Shown here piece after piece: positions 13,170 to 19,338 of a DNA stretch of 64,000 bases; positions within the stretch are counted from its first letter, which is position 1; every line of letters begins with the position of its first letter. The DNA is from Geobacteraceae bacterium. GTDB taxonomy: Bacteria > Desulfobacterota > Desulfuromonadia > Desulfuromonadales > BM103. The stretch is taken from assembly GCA_024641085.1 (NCBI GenBank), contig JAHEDT010000002.1:62001-126000 (forward strand), written 5' to 3'. The position numbers and the translations under genes are program-made. Under the pieces are notes generated by a model. That model ran no database searches, had not been told where the DNA came from, and saw nothing but the letters and a program-made list of their open reading frames with translations.

Positions 13170-13583
13170 CTAATTTGCCTTGAGTTCCGTATCGATCAGG
13201 ACCTGCTTCAGCCGCTCCAGGGTGGTTTCCAGGATTTTGTTGTCTTCAACGAGCAAACGCTTCTCAGCCAGGCAATTGGTGAGGGTCTGGTTGTTCTTCT
13301 GGTCCTGGGCTTGCAGTTGTTGCTGCCGCCTGGCCATGTCGATGATGCCATCGGCCCTGGCTCGCCACTCGCCTTGTGGAGACTGCTTCGACAAGAGGTG
13401 CAGCGTGGTCAGGTCACCGGTCGCCAGGTACTGGTCAAGCCCCTGAGCGAACAATTCGGCCTCTCCACTCACCGGCGATTGGGGCTCAATCACCGGCTGT
13501 TGGGACATTGATATGCCGCTGCACCCGATCGACGTCAGGCAAAGGACCAGGAGGCAGGACCAGCGGGTGATTGCCTTCGTCAT
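13170..13583 (-). CDS. Small coiled-coil lipoprotein paired with the diguanylate cyclase
   Basis: The 137-residue protein has a lipoprotein signal (SCLLVLCLTSIGC, lipid-accepting Cys21), so it should be anchored to a membrane on the periplasmic side. The mature part carries a Gln-rich helical region (ARRQQQLQAQDQKNNQTL) and a C-terminal amphipathic helix, likely a coiled coil. Its ATG overlaps the stop of the upstream diguanylate cyclase gene (ATGA), so the two are translationally coupled. The periplasmic domain of that cyclase is a possible partner. A GC-rich inverted repeat (ggttgcgc...gcgcaacc) just past the stop may end the transcript. Confidence 0.8.
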   Translation of the reverse strand: MTKAITRWSCLLVLCLTSIGCSGISMSQQPVIEPQSPVSGEAELFAQGLDQYLATGDLTTLHLLSKQSPQGEWRARADGIIDMARRQQQLQAQDQKNNQTLTNCLAEKRLLVEDNKILETTLERLKQVLIDTELKAN

Positions 13584-14908
13584 GATAGCTGCTTTCTGCG
13601 GTCAATGAGGTAGTTGCTGTTCTTGAGCTGCTTGAGGTGTTCTTTCATCTTAGCACAGCTGAGGCTGATGCTTAAAGGGGTCGGATGGACCATATTCTCG
13701 GAGAGCGTAACGGCAATCGAAATGGTCAGCAGCGGGAAGGAGCGTTTGAGGCCATCCCGGTCTTTGCCGACGATGAACCCGGCCTCTAAATCCTTCTGCT
13801 GGTAAAGTTCGGGGACGTGGCTGTCGAAGGTTTTGATGATGTCCTTGGCAAGCGTTTCGGCCCGGTCAGGAGTCGTCAAAACCACATAATCGTCCCCACC
13901 TATATGGCCGACCAGGTCGTCGTCGCCGCCGTGCCGTTCCACGGCCTCGCGGAGCAGGTTGCCGACCAGGTTGATTGCATCACTGCCGACCTTGTAGCCA
14001 TAGTGATCGCTGTAGGCCTTGAAATTGTCCAGGTCGATGTAGAGATGAGCGAAGGGCCGCTGCTCGGCAATGCGCTGCTCCAGTTCACGGTCAATCGCCA
14101 GGTTCCCGGGCAGCCGGGTCAGGGGGTTGGCGTCCAGGCTCAGTTGCTCCAGTTCTTTAAGCTTCCTGGCCATGCGGGCGAAGTCCTGGGCCAGCTGGCC
14201 GAACTCGTCGTTGCTGCGGATATCGATCGGCGCTTCGAATTTCCCGGCGGAAATGTCCTGCGTGGCTTTTTGCAGGACCTTGACCGAGCCGTGGATGCTG
14301 GCGATCACGGTGAGGGCGACAGGGGCCGAGAGGATAATGCCGAAGAGGCTGATAAACAGGGTCAGACGGTAGGCTTTGGTGCTCTGCAGTGACAGCTCGT
14401 TGAGATCCTGGTCCAAAACGGTCTGGTGCTGCGTCCAGAGGTCGGACAGCAAGACCAGCAGCTGGCTGCGCAGCGGCGTTGTGGTCGTCTTGGCAAGGGT
14501 CGCCGCGCGGTCCCATTCACCTTCGGTAAAGAGCTGCATCAGGAGACGGGCCTGAGCGGTATATTCCTCGACTGCTAAGGGCAGGGGCGCAAGGTAGGCA
14601 GGCTGCGGAACAGCCTTGATCTCAAGGAGCAGGCTGTCCAGGTCTGCGGCGCGCCGCTCAAGCAGTCCGAGCAGCTTCGCGTCGCGCAGGATGATGAGCT
14701 GTTTTTCGAGGTTCTCCTGGCCCAACAGGTTCTGCCGGAGATCCCGCAACAGGATAAAGGTGCGGAACTGCCCGCCCACAAGCTGCTGGGTCCGCAGGTT
14801 GTGGTCATGCAGGTTGACCAGGGCGTACCCCAGTGCCAGCAGGCTGAACGTAATGATGACCAGATAGCCGAGCGCGACTTTCCTGGTGACCGTAAAATAA
14901 GACGTCAT
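13580..14908 (-). CDS. Membrane diguanylate cyclase (HAMP-GGDEF) with GGDDY signature
   Basis: The 442-residue protein has TM1 (residues ~11-32), a mostly helical periplasmic sensor (33-180), TM2 (~181-203), HAMP (~204-252) and a GGDEF domain (~262-435; NPLTRLPGN, YIDLDNFKAYSDHYGY). The signature reads IGGDDY (336-341) instead of GGDEF. The RxxD product-inhibition site five residues upstream is absent. GTP-to-c-di-GMP activity is likely, because Asp/Glu swaps at the fourth position can retain activity, but it is not certain. AGGAG precedes the ATG. It is followed by a coupled lipoprotein gene. A GEMM-type riboswitch 3.6 kb away could sense its product (inference). Confidence 0.85.
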   Translation of the reverse strand: MTSYFTVTRKVALGYLVIITFSLLALGYALVNLHDHNLRTQQLVGGQFRTFILLRDLRQNLLGQENLEKQLIILRDAKLLGLLERRAADLDSLLLEIKAVPQPAYLAPLPLAVEEYTAQARLLMQLFTEGEWDRAATLAKTTTTPLRSQLLVLLSDLWTQHQTVLDQDLNELSLQSTKAYRLTLFISLFGIILSAPVALTVIASIHGSVKVLQKATQDISAGKFEAPIDIRSNDEFGQLAQDFARMARKLKELEQLSLDANPLTRLPGNLAIDRELEQRIAEQRPFAHLYIDLDNFKAYSDHYGYKVGSDAINLVGNLLREAVERHGGDDDLVGHIGGDDYVVLTTPDRAETLAKDIIKTFDSHVPELYQQKDLEAGFIVGKDRDGLKRSFPLLTISIAVTLSENMVHPTPLSISLSCAKMKEHLKQLKNSNYLIDRRKQLS

Positions 14909-15294
14909 CCCCGCTCCTGTTCGGTGGTTCCGGGCTCTACCTGGTGTGGCTTGAGCCTATTATATTCTGCTCTGGGCGATAAGTCTCCTTTTCATTGCCG
15001 TCTATGTTCTGAGCTGCCCCTGCAACAAAAATGTATCCTGCAGCGCCTAGGGCGATGTCACGTCCACTATCTGATGGATAAATTTGTCCTGCAGCACCAG
15101 AGTTGGGCCTGTAAGGGATTTCGTGTAAACGGGTCTGTCGGTCAGTAAGTTGCTACCTTCCTGCTGAAAAAGATCAACATGGAGTTCTGAAACCAAAAAG
15201 AAGGCCCCGACCATCGCCGGGGCTTTCTTTTTATCACAACATTCTTTTTATGTCTGGGATGAAGTCAGACGACACCATCTATGACCGTAGTGGT
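14909..15294. other. Intergenic gap with terminator
   Basis: No gene is seen apart from the terminator at 15195-15232. The upstream promoter of the cyclase operon should lie between 14909 and 15190. Confidence 0.5.
15195..15232. terminator. Terminator of the PKD lipoprotein unit
   Basis: aaagaaggccccg and cggggctttcttt form a long stem on a 7-base loop, with Ts on both outer sides, so it works in both directions. It lies 60-100 bases past the minus-strand stop at 15295. Confidence 0.8.
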
Positions 15295-18198
15295 TTATTC
15301 GTATTTCCAAACCACTATACCGGTACTGCCTTGGGGGACAAAGCTGTACCCCCCGATCAGAATGTTGTCTGCGCTGTCGATCGTCAAAGATTCCCCCCCA
15401 CTTTCAAGCTCTCCAGCATATGTGATGACACCATTATCGCCAAATGAGGCGACAGATTGACCGTTGCTGTCATATTTCCAGAGTGTCATATTATATGGAA
15501 TTTGACCCACAACGAAGATATTGCTCGCACTGTCTAAAGCAATGGCACGTCCACAAGTAGTGGCCCCACATGCATAGGATACAATGCCATTAACACCAAA
15601 ATCTGTAACCAGGGCGCCGTTGCCGTTGTATTTCCAGATCTTCAATGAAACGGGAAAACCACCATAGCCCATAACTAAATAGTTACCTTGATCGTCAATC
15701 ACAATGTCATTAGCTGATTGGCCGAACAATTCCTTTATTTCACCTAATTGGCCAAAAGTCTGAACCAGACCGCTACCGGTGATGTCCAATTTAAAGACGA
15801 TTGAATTGAAACTGCTGGTCCTCGGTTTGATGTATGAACCGGCGACCATAATATTGTTGTCAGCATCAACAGTAATTGATTTACCATTCTCGGTATTGTC
15901 GCCGACATTGTAGGTAAAGATGCCATCACCGCCACCAAACACAGAGATCGGACTGCCGGTGCTGTTGGAATATTGCCAGACCGCAATTGCGGTATCTTCG
16001 AGGTTAGGACCAGTTTTGCTTGAACCCGTGACCAGAATCCTGCCAGATGTGTCCAGAGTGATAGCATGACCAACATCGACATTACCGCCATCGTAAATTG
16101 CGACGCCGTTAATACCAAACAAGGTGACAGGTTCACCACTGCTGTCAAACTTCCAGATCGCCATATCAGCATCGATGCCATTGTGGATATAGCCTGTGAC
16201 CAGGATATTTCCTCCGCCATCTAGAATAAGATCATAGCCTACATCGGAAATACCACTGTCATAGACAACGATGCCATCCCCGTTACCAAAGGTGGTATCC
16301 AAGGCGCCGCTGCTGGTATACTTCATGAGCACCATATCATTATCTCTGCCATTATTAATGTACCCGGTCACATAGACATTATCGGAAGCATCATGGGTGA
16401 TTCCATATGCATGATCGGCACCTGTACCAGGATCGTAAACGGCAATACCGTCACCATCAAAGTCCGGATCAAGGCTGCCACTGCCACCTGACGATGCTGC
16501 CGTGGCGGTAATCGTGACCGTGTCGGGAGTACTGTTTTCGCTGCCGTCGTTGACGATAAGTTGAGCGATGTATGGTCCATCCACGTCAGGAGTGAATGTC
16601 GGATTCTCTGCTTCTGGATCTGACAGATCGCTGTTAGTGATACTGCTGCCATCTACGACCGAAATGAAGCTCCAAGTGTAACTCAAGTCATCTAAATCTG
16701 CATCACTGCTGCCGCTGCCGTCGAGTGTCACTAATTCACCTGTAGTAACACTTTGCGCATCCCCTGCGTCGGCAACAGGAGTTGAATTGGTTGTTTCAGC
16801 TGTGATTAGTACCGTAGTTGCCACGCTGTCTACCGTTCCGTCGTTGACGATCAATTGCACGACATACTCGCCATCGAGATCCGCAACAAAAGTTGGATTG
16901 ATCGCTGCAGAATCGGACAAAGTCGCACCGCTGGTGGTATCAGGTTTTGTTATAATACTCCAGCTATAGGTTAGATCATCGTTGTCGGCATCTTGGCTCC
17001 CAGAGCCATCGAGTTGAACAGTGTCTGCCGTACTGACATTTTGAGCTTCTCCTGCATCGGCGACAGGAGGCGTATTACTGGCTACGGCTGTTGCCGTAAT
17101 AGTAACGGTATCGACAGCACTATCGATCGCGCCGTCGTTAACGACTAGTCCAATAATGTAGGTCCCAGCCACATCGGGGGTAAACGTTGGCTGGGCAGCC
17201 GTTGTGCTGGAAAGACTCGCATTCGTGATGCTGCTTCCACCTGCTACGGTCTTAACGTTCCAGGCGTAGGTCAATGTATCACCTGCGTCCACATCAGAAC
17301 TGTCCGAACCATCCAGGGCCACTGTCACTCCGACTTTGACGTTTTGATCAGGTCCTGCATCGGCGACAGGAGGCGTGTTGCTTGAAGCCGTCTCTGCCGT
17401 AATCGTAACGGTATCAACGGCACTCTCCAGGATGCCGTCGTTTACGGTCAGCTCGACTATATAAACACCTTCGGTGTCAACCGTAAATGTCGGGTTGACG
17501 GCCGTTGTACTAGATAACTCGGCGCTGCTGTCGCCCGGGAGTGTCAGCGTCCATGAATATGTCAGGCTGTCGCCGTCCGCATCTGAACTTCCGGAGCCAT
17601 CCAGCGTTACCGTTGCACCTGTGCTGGTATTTTGATCAGGTCCTGCATCTGCAACCGGGAAATGGCCTCCAACAGGAATACTTCCCCCCAAAGAGATAAT
17701 TGTGTTGTTCAGTGCTTCGAGTGCTGCCTCTTCACTAACCAATTGAATACCAAGTGCTGCTTCAATATCTACTTCGAACGATTGGCTGGAAAAATCGATA
17801 CTCAGCGGCAGCAAAGCAATCAAGTCTAAATCCAGAACGATGACGCCGTTATCTGGATTGCCATCACCATCAAGTGATTGCAGCAGTCGTGCGAGGTTAA
17901 TGACTGCCTGTGTGTCATTCGGAAAAAGAGTGTAAGGTGTCGTAGTACCGTTTTGTGCAGCTACTGTCGCGATTGGAATATCACCAAGATAGAACGTGAC
18001 ATCAGTACCGCTACGACAGGTAAACCTGCCCTGTGAATTTGTTGAATCTTCTGACGTGCCACAGGAATAACTCATACCCTGGACTACATCATCAACAAAC
18101 TGACCCGTTACAGTGCTATTACTGCTATTGTCACCCCCACAAGCCATCATACAAAACGCAACAACCAAAGAAGTCCCCAAAATTTTCAAATCTCGCAT
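15295..18198 (-). CDS. Large surface lipoprotein: four PKD-like domains and C-terminal delta-60 repeats
   Basis: ATG 18198 (preceded by AAGGAG) gives 967 residues. The lipobox MMAC puts the lipidated Cys at 20. Residues ~25-175 hold a domain of unknown type. Four PKD/REJ-like modules follow, each starting PVADAGPDQN, PVADAGEAQN or similar, at about 181, 277, 378 and 474. From ~577 to the end run delta-60-type beta-propeller repeats (DTTFGNGDGIVVYDSG; FGINGVAIYDGG; ITVDADNNIMVAGSY), each ending in a 'W/KYxxxG' strand. The protein is probably outer-membrane attached and adhesive or matrix-binding. A cyclic-dinucleotide riboswitch upstream controls this transcript or the smaller lipoprotein before it. 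Confidence 0.85.
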   Translation of the reverse strand: MRDLKILGTSLVVAFCMMACGGDNSSNSTVTGQFVDDVVQGMSYSCGTSEDSTNSQGRFTCRSGTDVTFYLGDIPIATVAAQNGTTTPYTLFPNDTQAVINLARLLQSLDGDGNPDNGVIVLDLDLIALLPLSIDFSSQSFEVDIEAALGIQLVSEEAALEALNNTIISLGGSIPVGGHFPVADAGPDQNTSTGATVTLDGSGSSDADGDSLTYSWTLTLPGDSSAELSSTTAVNPTFTVDTEGVYIVELTVNDGILESAVDTVTITAETASSNTPPVADAGPDQNVKVGVTVALDGSDSSDVDAGDTLTYAWNVKTVAGGSSITNASLSSTTAAQPTFTPDVAGTYIIGLVVNDGAIDSAVDTVTITATAVASNTPPVADAGEAQNVSTADTVQLDGSGSQDADNDDLTYSWSIITKPDTTSGATLSDSAAINPTFVADLDGEYVVQLIVNDGTVDSVATTVLITAETTNSTPVADAGDAQSVTTGELVTLDGSGSSDADLDDLSYTWSFISVVDGSSITNSDLSDPEAENPTFTPDVDGPYIAQLIVNDGSENSTPDTVTITATAASSGGSGSLDPDFDGDGIAVYDPGTGADHAYGITHDASDNVYVTGYINNGRDNDMVLMKYTSSGALDTTFGNGDGIVVYDSGISDVGYDLILDGGGNILVTGYIHNGIDADMAIWKFDSSGEPVTLFGINGVAIYDGGNVDVGHAITLDTSGRILVTGSSKTGPNLEDTAIAVWQYSNSTGSPISVFGGGDGIFTYNVGDNTENGKSITVDADNNIMVAGSYIKPRTSSFNSIVFKLDITGSGLVQTFGQLGEIKELFGQSANDIVIDDQGNYLVMGYGGFPVSLKIWKYNGNGALVTDFGVNGIVSYACGATTCGRAIALDSASNIFVVGQIPYNMTLWKYDSNGQSVASFGDNGVITYAGELESGGESLTIDSADNILIGGYSFVPQGSTGIVVWKYE

Positions 18199-18270: not shown

Positions 18271-18408
18271 TTACAGAGCGCCGGACGAGCTCAAAAGATT
18301 CTGGCTAGGACCCGCATTGGCTTCAAAGTTATCGCCATCATTGTCACCACAGCCAAAGAGAGACAATAAACCAACCACAATAAGTGCACAGAACAATTTG
18401 CTCCTCAT
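18271..18408 (-). CDS. 45-residue lipoprotein, truncated start of a PKD lipoprotein
   Basis: AAGGAGG precedes ATG 18408. The product has a lipoprotein signal (LIVVGLLSLFGC, lipidated Cys19). The mature part, GDNDGDNFEANAGPSQNLL, ends after SSSGAL. ANAGPSQN resembles the first strand of the PKD modules in the neighbouring gene (VADAGPDQN), but a TAA stops it there and no PKD sequence continues in any frame before the next gene. It is the first gene after the riboswitch. It may be a decayed PKD-lipoprotein start, or a genuine short lipoprotein such as a secretion or leader unit. Confidence 0.6.
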   Translation of the reverse strand: MRSKLFCALIVVGLLSLFGCGDNDGDNFEANAGPSQNLLSSSGAL

Positions 18409-18497: not shown

Positions 18498-18541
18498 ATA
18501 AAAAAGCCGCACCGCCAAAATTCATTTTGGCAGTCCGGCTG
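18498..18541 (-). terminator. Riboswitch expression platform: terminator overlapping the aptamer
   Basis: gccggactgccaaaa and ttttggcggtgcggc form a 15-position stem with one mismatch on a tgaa loop, directly followed by ttttttat. The 5' arm contains the last strand of the aptamer (ccggactgcc), so aptamer closure and terminator are mutually exclusive. Ligand binding should therefore prevent termination: an ON switch. Confidence 0.8.
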
Positions 18542-18607
18542 TCTCAAACAGAAAAGAATAAGACCCGTGACTTTCCGCCCCTGCCTCACGGCAGGTTTGG
18601 CCTTGTC
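18530..18607 (-). ncRNA. GEMM-I class cyclic-dinucleotide riboswitch aptamer
   Basis: On the minus strand the RNA reads aaggccaaacctgcc, then a gtga tetraloop closing a 5-6 bp stem, ggcaggggcggaaagtcacg, ggtctt..., and gagacagccggactgcc. This follows the c-di-GMP-I (GEMM-I) plan: GCAAACC, a GNRA hairpin, ggg-cgcaaag-c, a second hairpin, and a closing ccggg.tgcc strand pairing with the 5' ggc. Two positions deviate from consensus (ccaaacc, cggaaagtc). Specificity for c-di-GMP or for 3',3'-cGAMP (GEMM-Ib, common in Geobacter relatives) cannot be read with confidence. It lies 120 bases before the 45-residue lipoprotein gene. Confidence 0.75.
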
Positions 18608-18942
18608 AATAAAGGAAATTATTTTATTAATTCATTAAAAAGCAGGATCAACGTATTTATGTCAAGATTTTATATTTATCAATCTTATTTTATACAAACA
18701 TTTCGTTTTTTTCTCACAAATTTCTCACATTAATATTAGAAATAAAGAACCATGAGATATATAATGTGCCATCGCTCATATTGCCCGGGATTTAACCGTT
18801 AAATAGACATTGGGCTGATTTCCTTCTGCATGATTTGGATTTTTTTGCAGGATGAGAAGTCGCCTTACCAGTTATTCACCAATGTTCGAGATGCAACAGA
18901 TTGGCGCCAAGGAGACATTCTTTGGGACTCTGAAGTTGCGAC
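18608..18942. other. AT-rich intergenic stretch
   Basis: No gene. The promoter feeding the riboswitch should lie here, on the minus strand right of 18607. The stretch is strikingly AT-rich compared with the rest of the window. Confidence 0.5.
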
Positions 18943-19070
18943 AAAAAAAGCCCCGCAGTCATAAGGGTGACTGAGGGGCAAAGGGTTCTATGGGTTTTTC
19001 TTTTTAGGAGGGGTGAACATGAAGAAGTATGTTCTGGTGAATATCTTACTTATTTTGTCAGGTATGTCAA
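18943..19070 (+). repeat. Dispersed repeat family A, copy 1 (hairpin, RBS, micro-ORF)
   Basis: A-run, then gccccgcagtca...tgactgaggggc hairpin, then aaagggttctatgggttttt, a strong TTTTTAGGAGGGG ribosome site, and a micro-ORF starting MKKYVLVNILLI. The copy at 45285-45410 matches almost base for base over about 125 positions, and a decayed copy lies at 58403-58470. Confidence 0.8.
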
Positions 19071-19087
19071 GCAAAAAATTTATGTAG
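19019..19087 (+). CDS. Micro-ORF of repeat family A (22 codons)
   Basis: It follows AGGAGGGG at good spacing. The peptide begins MKKYVLVNILLILSG, a short positively charged start and hydrophobic stretch like a minimal membrane or leader peptide, and ends KKFM at a TAG. In the copy at 45358 the same frame stops after 12 residues. Translation is not proven; conservation of start, ribosome site and first 12 codons between copies is the evidence. Confidence 0.35.
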   Translation: MKKYVLVNILLILSGMSSKKFM

Positions 19088-19151
19088 AAAAACAGCCCCC
19101 GGCGTTCAATCCCGCCGGCACCCCAAACAAAGGCACCAAACTACTGAAGAC

Positions 19152-19258
19152 ATTAACTCACACAAAGACGTATAGGCGCAGGGAGCAATCCCAGAGCCGT
19201 GATATTCCCTTAAGATTTATGCACATTCCCTCTGCGCCTTTGCGCCTCTGCGTTAAAA
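19152..19258. repeat. Dispersed intergenic repeat, family C copy 2
   Basis: The left end is cacaaagacgtataggcgca and the right end ctctgcgcctttgcgcctct; the ends are loosely inverted. The shared core is agcaatcccagagccgtgat and agatttatgcacattccctc. The partner lies at 11561-11655. Confidence 0.7.
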
Positions 19259-19338
19259 CTTTTCAGGTTTTTGAACCGTAAAAAAATAGCTCCCGGCAGC
19301 AGCAGGAGCGCCAGGCGGATGACACCTCTACTAAAGCA

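Follow-up and report, generated by a model that had tools for sequence, protein, structure and literature searches.

A GEMM-I riboswitch with an overlapping terminator, predicted to respond to c-di-GMP, ahead of a PKD/delta-60 lipoprotein gene in a Geobacteraceae bacterium

The closest described systems are the GEMM-Ib (3',3'-cGAMP) riboswitches of Geobacter, exemplified by the RNAs of pilM in G. metallireducens and of pgcA (GSU1761) in G. sulfurreducens. In experiments on the pilM riboswitch, terminator and aptamer excluded one another, C75 was sequestered by the terminator, and the ligand kept the gene on (PMC9262584). In the structure of the cGAMP riboswitch, A14 is the last base of J1/2, C15-G40 closes P2, A41 forms J2/3, and C75 is the base with which the ligand pairs (PMC6274999). 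An A20G change in a Geobacter GEMM-Ib RNA moves selectivity from cGAMP to c-di-GMP (PMC6456294). Position 20, named as G20 of Vc2, is described as a selectivity factor and not as a hard filter, and point changes in lower P2 can alter both affinity and selectivity (PMC9262584). The classical c-di-GMP-I RNAs (RF01051), of which Vc2 is an example, have a G20/A47/C92 pocket. Numbering here is that of Vc2, anchored on the cGAMP riboswitch, whose A14, C15-G40, A41 and C75 we take to be Vc2 positions 20, 21-46, 47 and 92.

The window, that is, the whole stretch of 64,000 nucleotides that was analysed, contains a single Rfam match when scanned with covariance models, a GEMM-I RNA at 18610-18525 on the minus strand. 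Its main elements are as follows.

18525 to 18610, minus strand: GEMM-I (c-di-GMP-I) aptamer (RF03167 74.2 bits, RF01051 67.7 bits).
18601, minus strand: G20, the ligand-selectivity position, where G is the c-di-GMP type (alignment of 114 aptamers; A20G rule, PMC6456294).
18600, minus strand: C21, partner of G46 (18575); the Rfam consensus has this pair the other way round, as G21-C46.
18574 to 18575, minus strand: G46 (18575) and A47 (18574), from the RF03167 alignment.
18530, minus strand: C92, the expected Watson-Crick partner of the ligand (alignment and C75 equivalence; PMC9262584, PMC6274999).

The match to RF03167 (c-di-GMP-I-GGC) covers the full length of the model (1-80 of 80) with an E value of 1e-15, and its score lies well over the cut-off of 59 bits; the score for the parent family RF01051 (c-di-GMP-I / GEMM-I) likewise exceeds its cut-off of 35 bits. 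A first-pass annotation had placed a GEMM-I RNA on the minus strand at 18498-18607 and had suggested a covariance search with the GEMM-I model; the two scores bear out that placement and confirm that the window RNA belongs to the known GEMM-I riboswitch family. It is the top-scoring RF03167 match within its own genome. A GEMM-I RNA is in itself unremarkable in this lineage, since RF03167 matches occur in 256 of 277 genomes of the class, and what the follow-up adds is a ligand prediction, a correction of the Rfam label and a pair-platform pattern. We put at roughly three in four the probability that a single GEMM-I aptamer here senses c-di-GMP and the riboswitch acts as a transcriptional ON switch.

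Which ligand does this RNA recognise? The pocket bases were computed directly by aligning 114 high-scoring RF03167 matches drawn from the genome, its relatives and its class. The window RNA has the G20/A47/C92 pocket of ordinary c-di-GMP-I RNAs, as do 107 of the 114; a further six are A20/A47/C92 and one is G20/C47/C92. Position 20 is thus G in 108 and A in 6, and A47, expected to intercalate in the ligand pocket, is present in all except one, where it is C. P2 and P3 are conserved with covariation, with 20 pairs counted over the 114 aptamers and double changes at many of them; P1 of the window RNA is weak, with two standard pairs adjoining the core. The 21-46 pair is GC in 59 and CG in 55 and is never mismatched. 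The first-pass annotation had remarked that two conserved positions deviate and had left the specificity unclear. Those positions do differ from the consensus, but damage is ruled out by the 59/55 covariation of what is a single Watson-Crick pair; they represent one compensatory swap, C21-G46. The specificity can also be constrained, because the base at position 20 is G and an A20G change shifts the selectivity of a Geobacter GEMM-Ib RNA to c-di-GMP (PMC6456294). The predicted ligand is therefore c-di-GMP; a point against this is that C21-G46 sits in lower P2, where point changes can alter affinity and selectivity (PMC9262584).

The same ON switch with 3',3'-cGAMP as its natural ligand, or with a response to both cyclic dinucleotides, is the strongest alternative, and we regard it as unlikely. 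In its C21-G46 pair and most pocket bases the window RNA agrees with the Geobacter cGAMP RNA (C15-G40, A41 and C75; PMC6274999), yet cGAMP-selective members of the family have A at position 20, where it has G (18601). The genome encodes eleven GGDEF domains, at least six of which have the canonical Asp, so that c-di-GMP can be made; two GGDEF proteins combine an intact GGDEF motif with Ser at the Hypr position, and cGAMP may therefore be present as well. One of these two, a REC-GAF-GGDEF protein, has as its best solved relative 6d9m (E 2e-52, with the next at 3e-37), a REC/GAF diguanylate cyclase fused to lysozyme. We presume that 6d9m is the structure of G. metallireducens GacA described in PMC6456294. 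Against cGAMP as the ligand of the window RNA stands the retention of one A20 copy in the same genome, which suggests that base 20 distinguishes the two signals. Since it has copies of both types, G20 and A20, as well as Hypr enzymes, this genome is well suited to asking how c-di-GMP and cGAMP responses are kept separate.

Two further features concern transcription of the leader.

18500 to 18540, minus strand: intrinsic terminator with a 15-pair stem, a UGAA loop and six T (fold and transcript-length ladder).
18660 to 18665, minus strand: TTGACA, the likely -35 box driving the leader (an exact match to the hexamer, lying 55 bases ahead of the aptamer).

The terminator arms, 18540-18525 and 18520-18505, form 15 pairs with one mismatch and run into six T at 18505-18500. 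The fold has an energy of -24.4 kcal/mol (z -5.96), and none of 200 shuffles was as good, in agreement with the earlier description of a terminator stem of 15 and six Ts sharing the last strand of the aptamer. The 5' arm, 18540-18525, consists of the very bases that make up that last strand, and C92 is paired inside the terminator. When this arm was kept constant and the sequence downstream of it was shuffled 2000 times, an overlapping partner of equal strength, followed by a T-rich stretch, arose only twice. Direct computation gives aptamer and terminator folds that are mutually exclusive. When growing transcripts were folded, C92 moved to its terminator partner as soon as 12 bases had been added beyond the aptamer; in the full-length transcript the fold with the terminator is favoured by 7.2 kcal/mol over that with C92 free, in energies that ignore tertiary contacts and kinetics, and ligand binding could plausibly offset this advantage.

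A terminator that directly overlaps the 3' strand of the aptamer is also the arrangement of the pilM ON switch (PMC9262584), and on this matching anatomy we retain the ON polarity that the first-pass annotation had proposed, as a prediction for the cell. The window RNA further resembles the Geobacter GEMM-Ib RNAs in its closing C-G pair of P2 and its equivalents of A41 and C75, and differs from them in having G in place of A at position 20 and in its target. With classical c-di-GMP-I RNAs it shares fold and pocket, unlike them having the closing pair of P2 swapped and a compact overlapping terminator.

In the mechanism that we propose, transcription would begin just upstream of the aptamer. 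Bound c-di-GMP would contact G20 through one guanine and C92 through the other, with A47 between them, and would hold the aptamer together. Because the ligand-held last strand would be unavailable to the terminator, polymerase would proceed into the 45-codon open reading frame and the 967-residue lipoprotein gene that follow. Without ligand, after about 12 more bases, the terminator arm would capture the C92 strand and transcription would stop at the six T. The spacing of the TTGACA hexamer is consistent with a promoter directly ahead of the aptamer, and the same hexamer occurs 37-65 bases upstream in seven of the nine GEMM-I copies of the genome, the window copy included. No clear -10 box was identified for this leader promoter, and a strict sigma-70 scan does not include the hexamer at 18665-18660 among its calls.

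The order of the downstream elements, as computed from the sequence, is as follows.

18271 to 18408, minus strand: 45-codon open reading frame that has a good ribosome-binding site and encodes a signal peptide with lipobox as well as ANAGPSQN, similar to the first part of a PKD motif.
15295 to 18198, minus strand: 967-residue lipoprotein, the predicted main regulated gene, with four PKD domains and delta-60 repeats.
15204 to 15223, minus strand: hairpin resembling a terminator, downstream of the lipoprotein gene, with GC at 7 of its 8 pairs (consensus scan).

The 967-residue protein, described as a PKD/delta-60 lipoprotein in the first-pass annotation, indeed matches PF22352 and PF18911 over four stretches each and TIGR02608 at 109.8 bits, over the curated cut-off. 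Its nearest named lipoprotein relatives with a similar N-terminus come from Desulfuromusa and Desulfuromonas MAGs, which points to a desulfuromonad. Near the relatives of this PKD protein examined in other genomes no GEMM-I RNA was found, so that riboswitch and PKD gene are not conserved together there, a point against the c-di-GMP ON-switch reading. We infer that the protein is placed and used at the cell surface, and the present reading predicts that c-di-GMP controls a large surface lipoprotein of the PKD/delta-60 type. The small lipoprotein proposed earlier for the 45-codon frame keeps its signal peptide and lipobox; it is possibly the truncated start of a PKD-lipoprotein gene, because it shows no more than weak relatives (E 8e-4 or worse), the best of which lie at the N-termini of much larger open frames.

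The RNA might instead be a relic, degenerate or constitutive, with an aptamer past binding and a hairpin that is merely an attenuator or plain terminator, given that the transcript opens with a frame resembling a truncated paralogue and that P1 is weak. We consider this very improbable, as the pocket bases are all intact, nearly all the pairs are too, and no RF03167 match in the genome is better. The hairpin at 15223-15204 probably ends the riboswitch operon, a weak assignment in that the hairpin count in its region is no higher than in shuffles.

Beyond this hairpin lies a HAMP-GGDEF gene (13580-14908, minus strand) whose product has a degenerate site (YSD, GS, GGDDY), with Ser at the Hypr position, and is probably inactive; a protein similar to it, with GS and GGDDF, is encoded on another contig (G000:C42). 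Control of this gene by the riboswitch is unlikely because 386 bases and the terminator-like hairpin separate the two. A role for it as a local cGAMP synthase is equally unlikely despite the Ser, because it has GGDDY, along with an altered Asn position, and Ser/Thr enzymes are reported with GGDE[F/Y] only (PMC6456294). On the other side of the riboswitch, the plus-strand frame at 18967-19281, translated as SAPLRLCVK..., seems to be an intergenic repeat of the dispersed kind and not a gene; a similar string occurs in a locus of a same-genus genome (L145).

The label attached to the best-scoring model calls for separate comment. RF03167 scores 6.5 bits above RF01051 on the window RNA, and its printed consensus carries G where this RNA carries A47 (18574). 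We read that G47 as the middle letter of "GGC". G47 is absent from all 114 high-scoring RF03167 matches, and a search of 395 genomes of the phylum for the exact G47 core pattern found none; a high RF03167 score here is therefore no sign of the GGC subclass. That the window RNA represents this rare subclass, possibly with another ligand, has the 6.5-bit margin in its favour and is the least probable reading of all, since the label tracks general sequence likeness and not the pocket, and membership is rejected on the A47 of the window RNA and the lack of G47 among its relatives. No ligand for the GGC class was found in the literature searched. Where label and pocket conflict, as they do in this lineage, the Rfam sub-family label is unfit for calling the ligand.

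What else distinguishes the two orientations of the 21-46 pair? The 114 aptamers suggest that C21-G46 goes with an overlapping terminator (ON anatomy) and G21-C46 with a distal one (OFF-like). In an automated test, a terminator overlapping C92 was called for 43 of 55 CG copies and 11 of 59 GC copies (Fisher p 1.7e-10), a figure to be read in the light of sequences that are non-independent and selected for high RF03167 scores, and of thresholds set after examples had been viewed. By eye, most of the CG failures do overlap and several of the GC positives seem spurious; the counts given are those of the automated test. Median arm duplex energies are -17.0 for CG and -9.6 for GC, with CG lower in 15 of the 17 genomes that have both types, and the medians of the antiterminator measure are reversed (-9.2 for CG, -15.1 for GC). 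A20 and G20 are each found with both pair types. It is thus tempting to propose that the orientation of the pair marks polarity independently of the ligand-setting base 20, C21-G46 with an overlapping terminator being ON and G21-C46 with a P1/antiterminator and a distal terminator being OFF. We hold this proposal tentatively, at somewhat short of even odds; the OFF reading of the G21-C46 type is taken from its anatomy. No statement of such a link was found in the literature searched, to which the original papers on the class did not belong. If the pair-platform link holds, polarity could be predicted from sequence in genomes where the copies number as many as 39, and the ligand and polarity of each of many copies per genome would be readable from three bases.

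The nine GEMM-I copies of the genome comprise eight with G20 and one with A20. An overlapping terminator passes the automated test in six of the eight G20 copies and is recognisable by eye in a seventh (L006). The copies other than that in the window precede mainly exported proteins, among them an S41/PDZ protease, DUF6639, DsrE-like and unassigned proteins, an ODP-family protein with a lactamase fold, and one protein of very large size. One copy (L007; G000:C68:19354-19445, minus strand) has C at position 47, giving the G/C/C pocket that is the sole case among the 114, and is possibly decayed.

The A20 copy, of the cGAMP type (L003; G000:C141:14027-14114, plus strand), precedes a REC-PilZ gene. 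Orthologous riboswitches ahead of this gene (the L242-L249 set) have A20 in five genomes, including the same-genus G001, and G20 in three; the best protein tree, whose support is low, needs two changes, and this riboswitch is a candidate for a natural switch of ligand. Copy number also varies among relatives, with 39 and 36 RF03167 matches in two genomes of the same family (G005 and G014) against nine here. Finally, G001 has three tandem GEMM-I aptamers about 180 bases apart (L145 4852-5305; G001:C168), each followed by a terminator-like hairpin, and this array lies ahead of an exported-protein gene.
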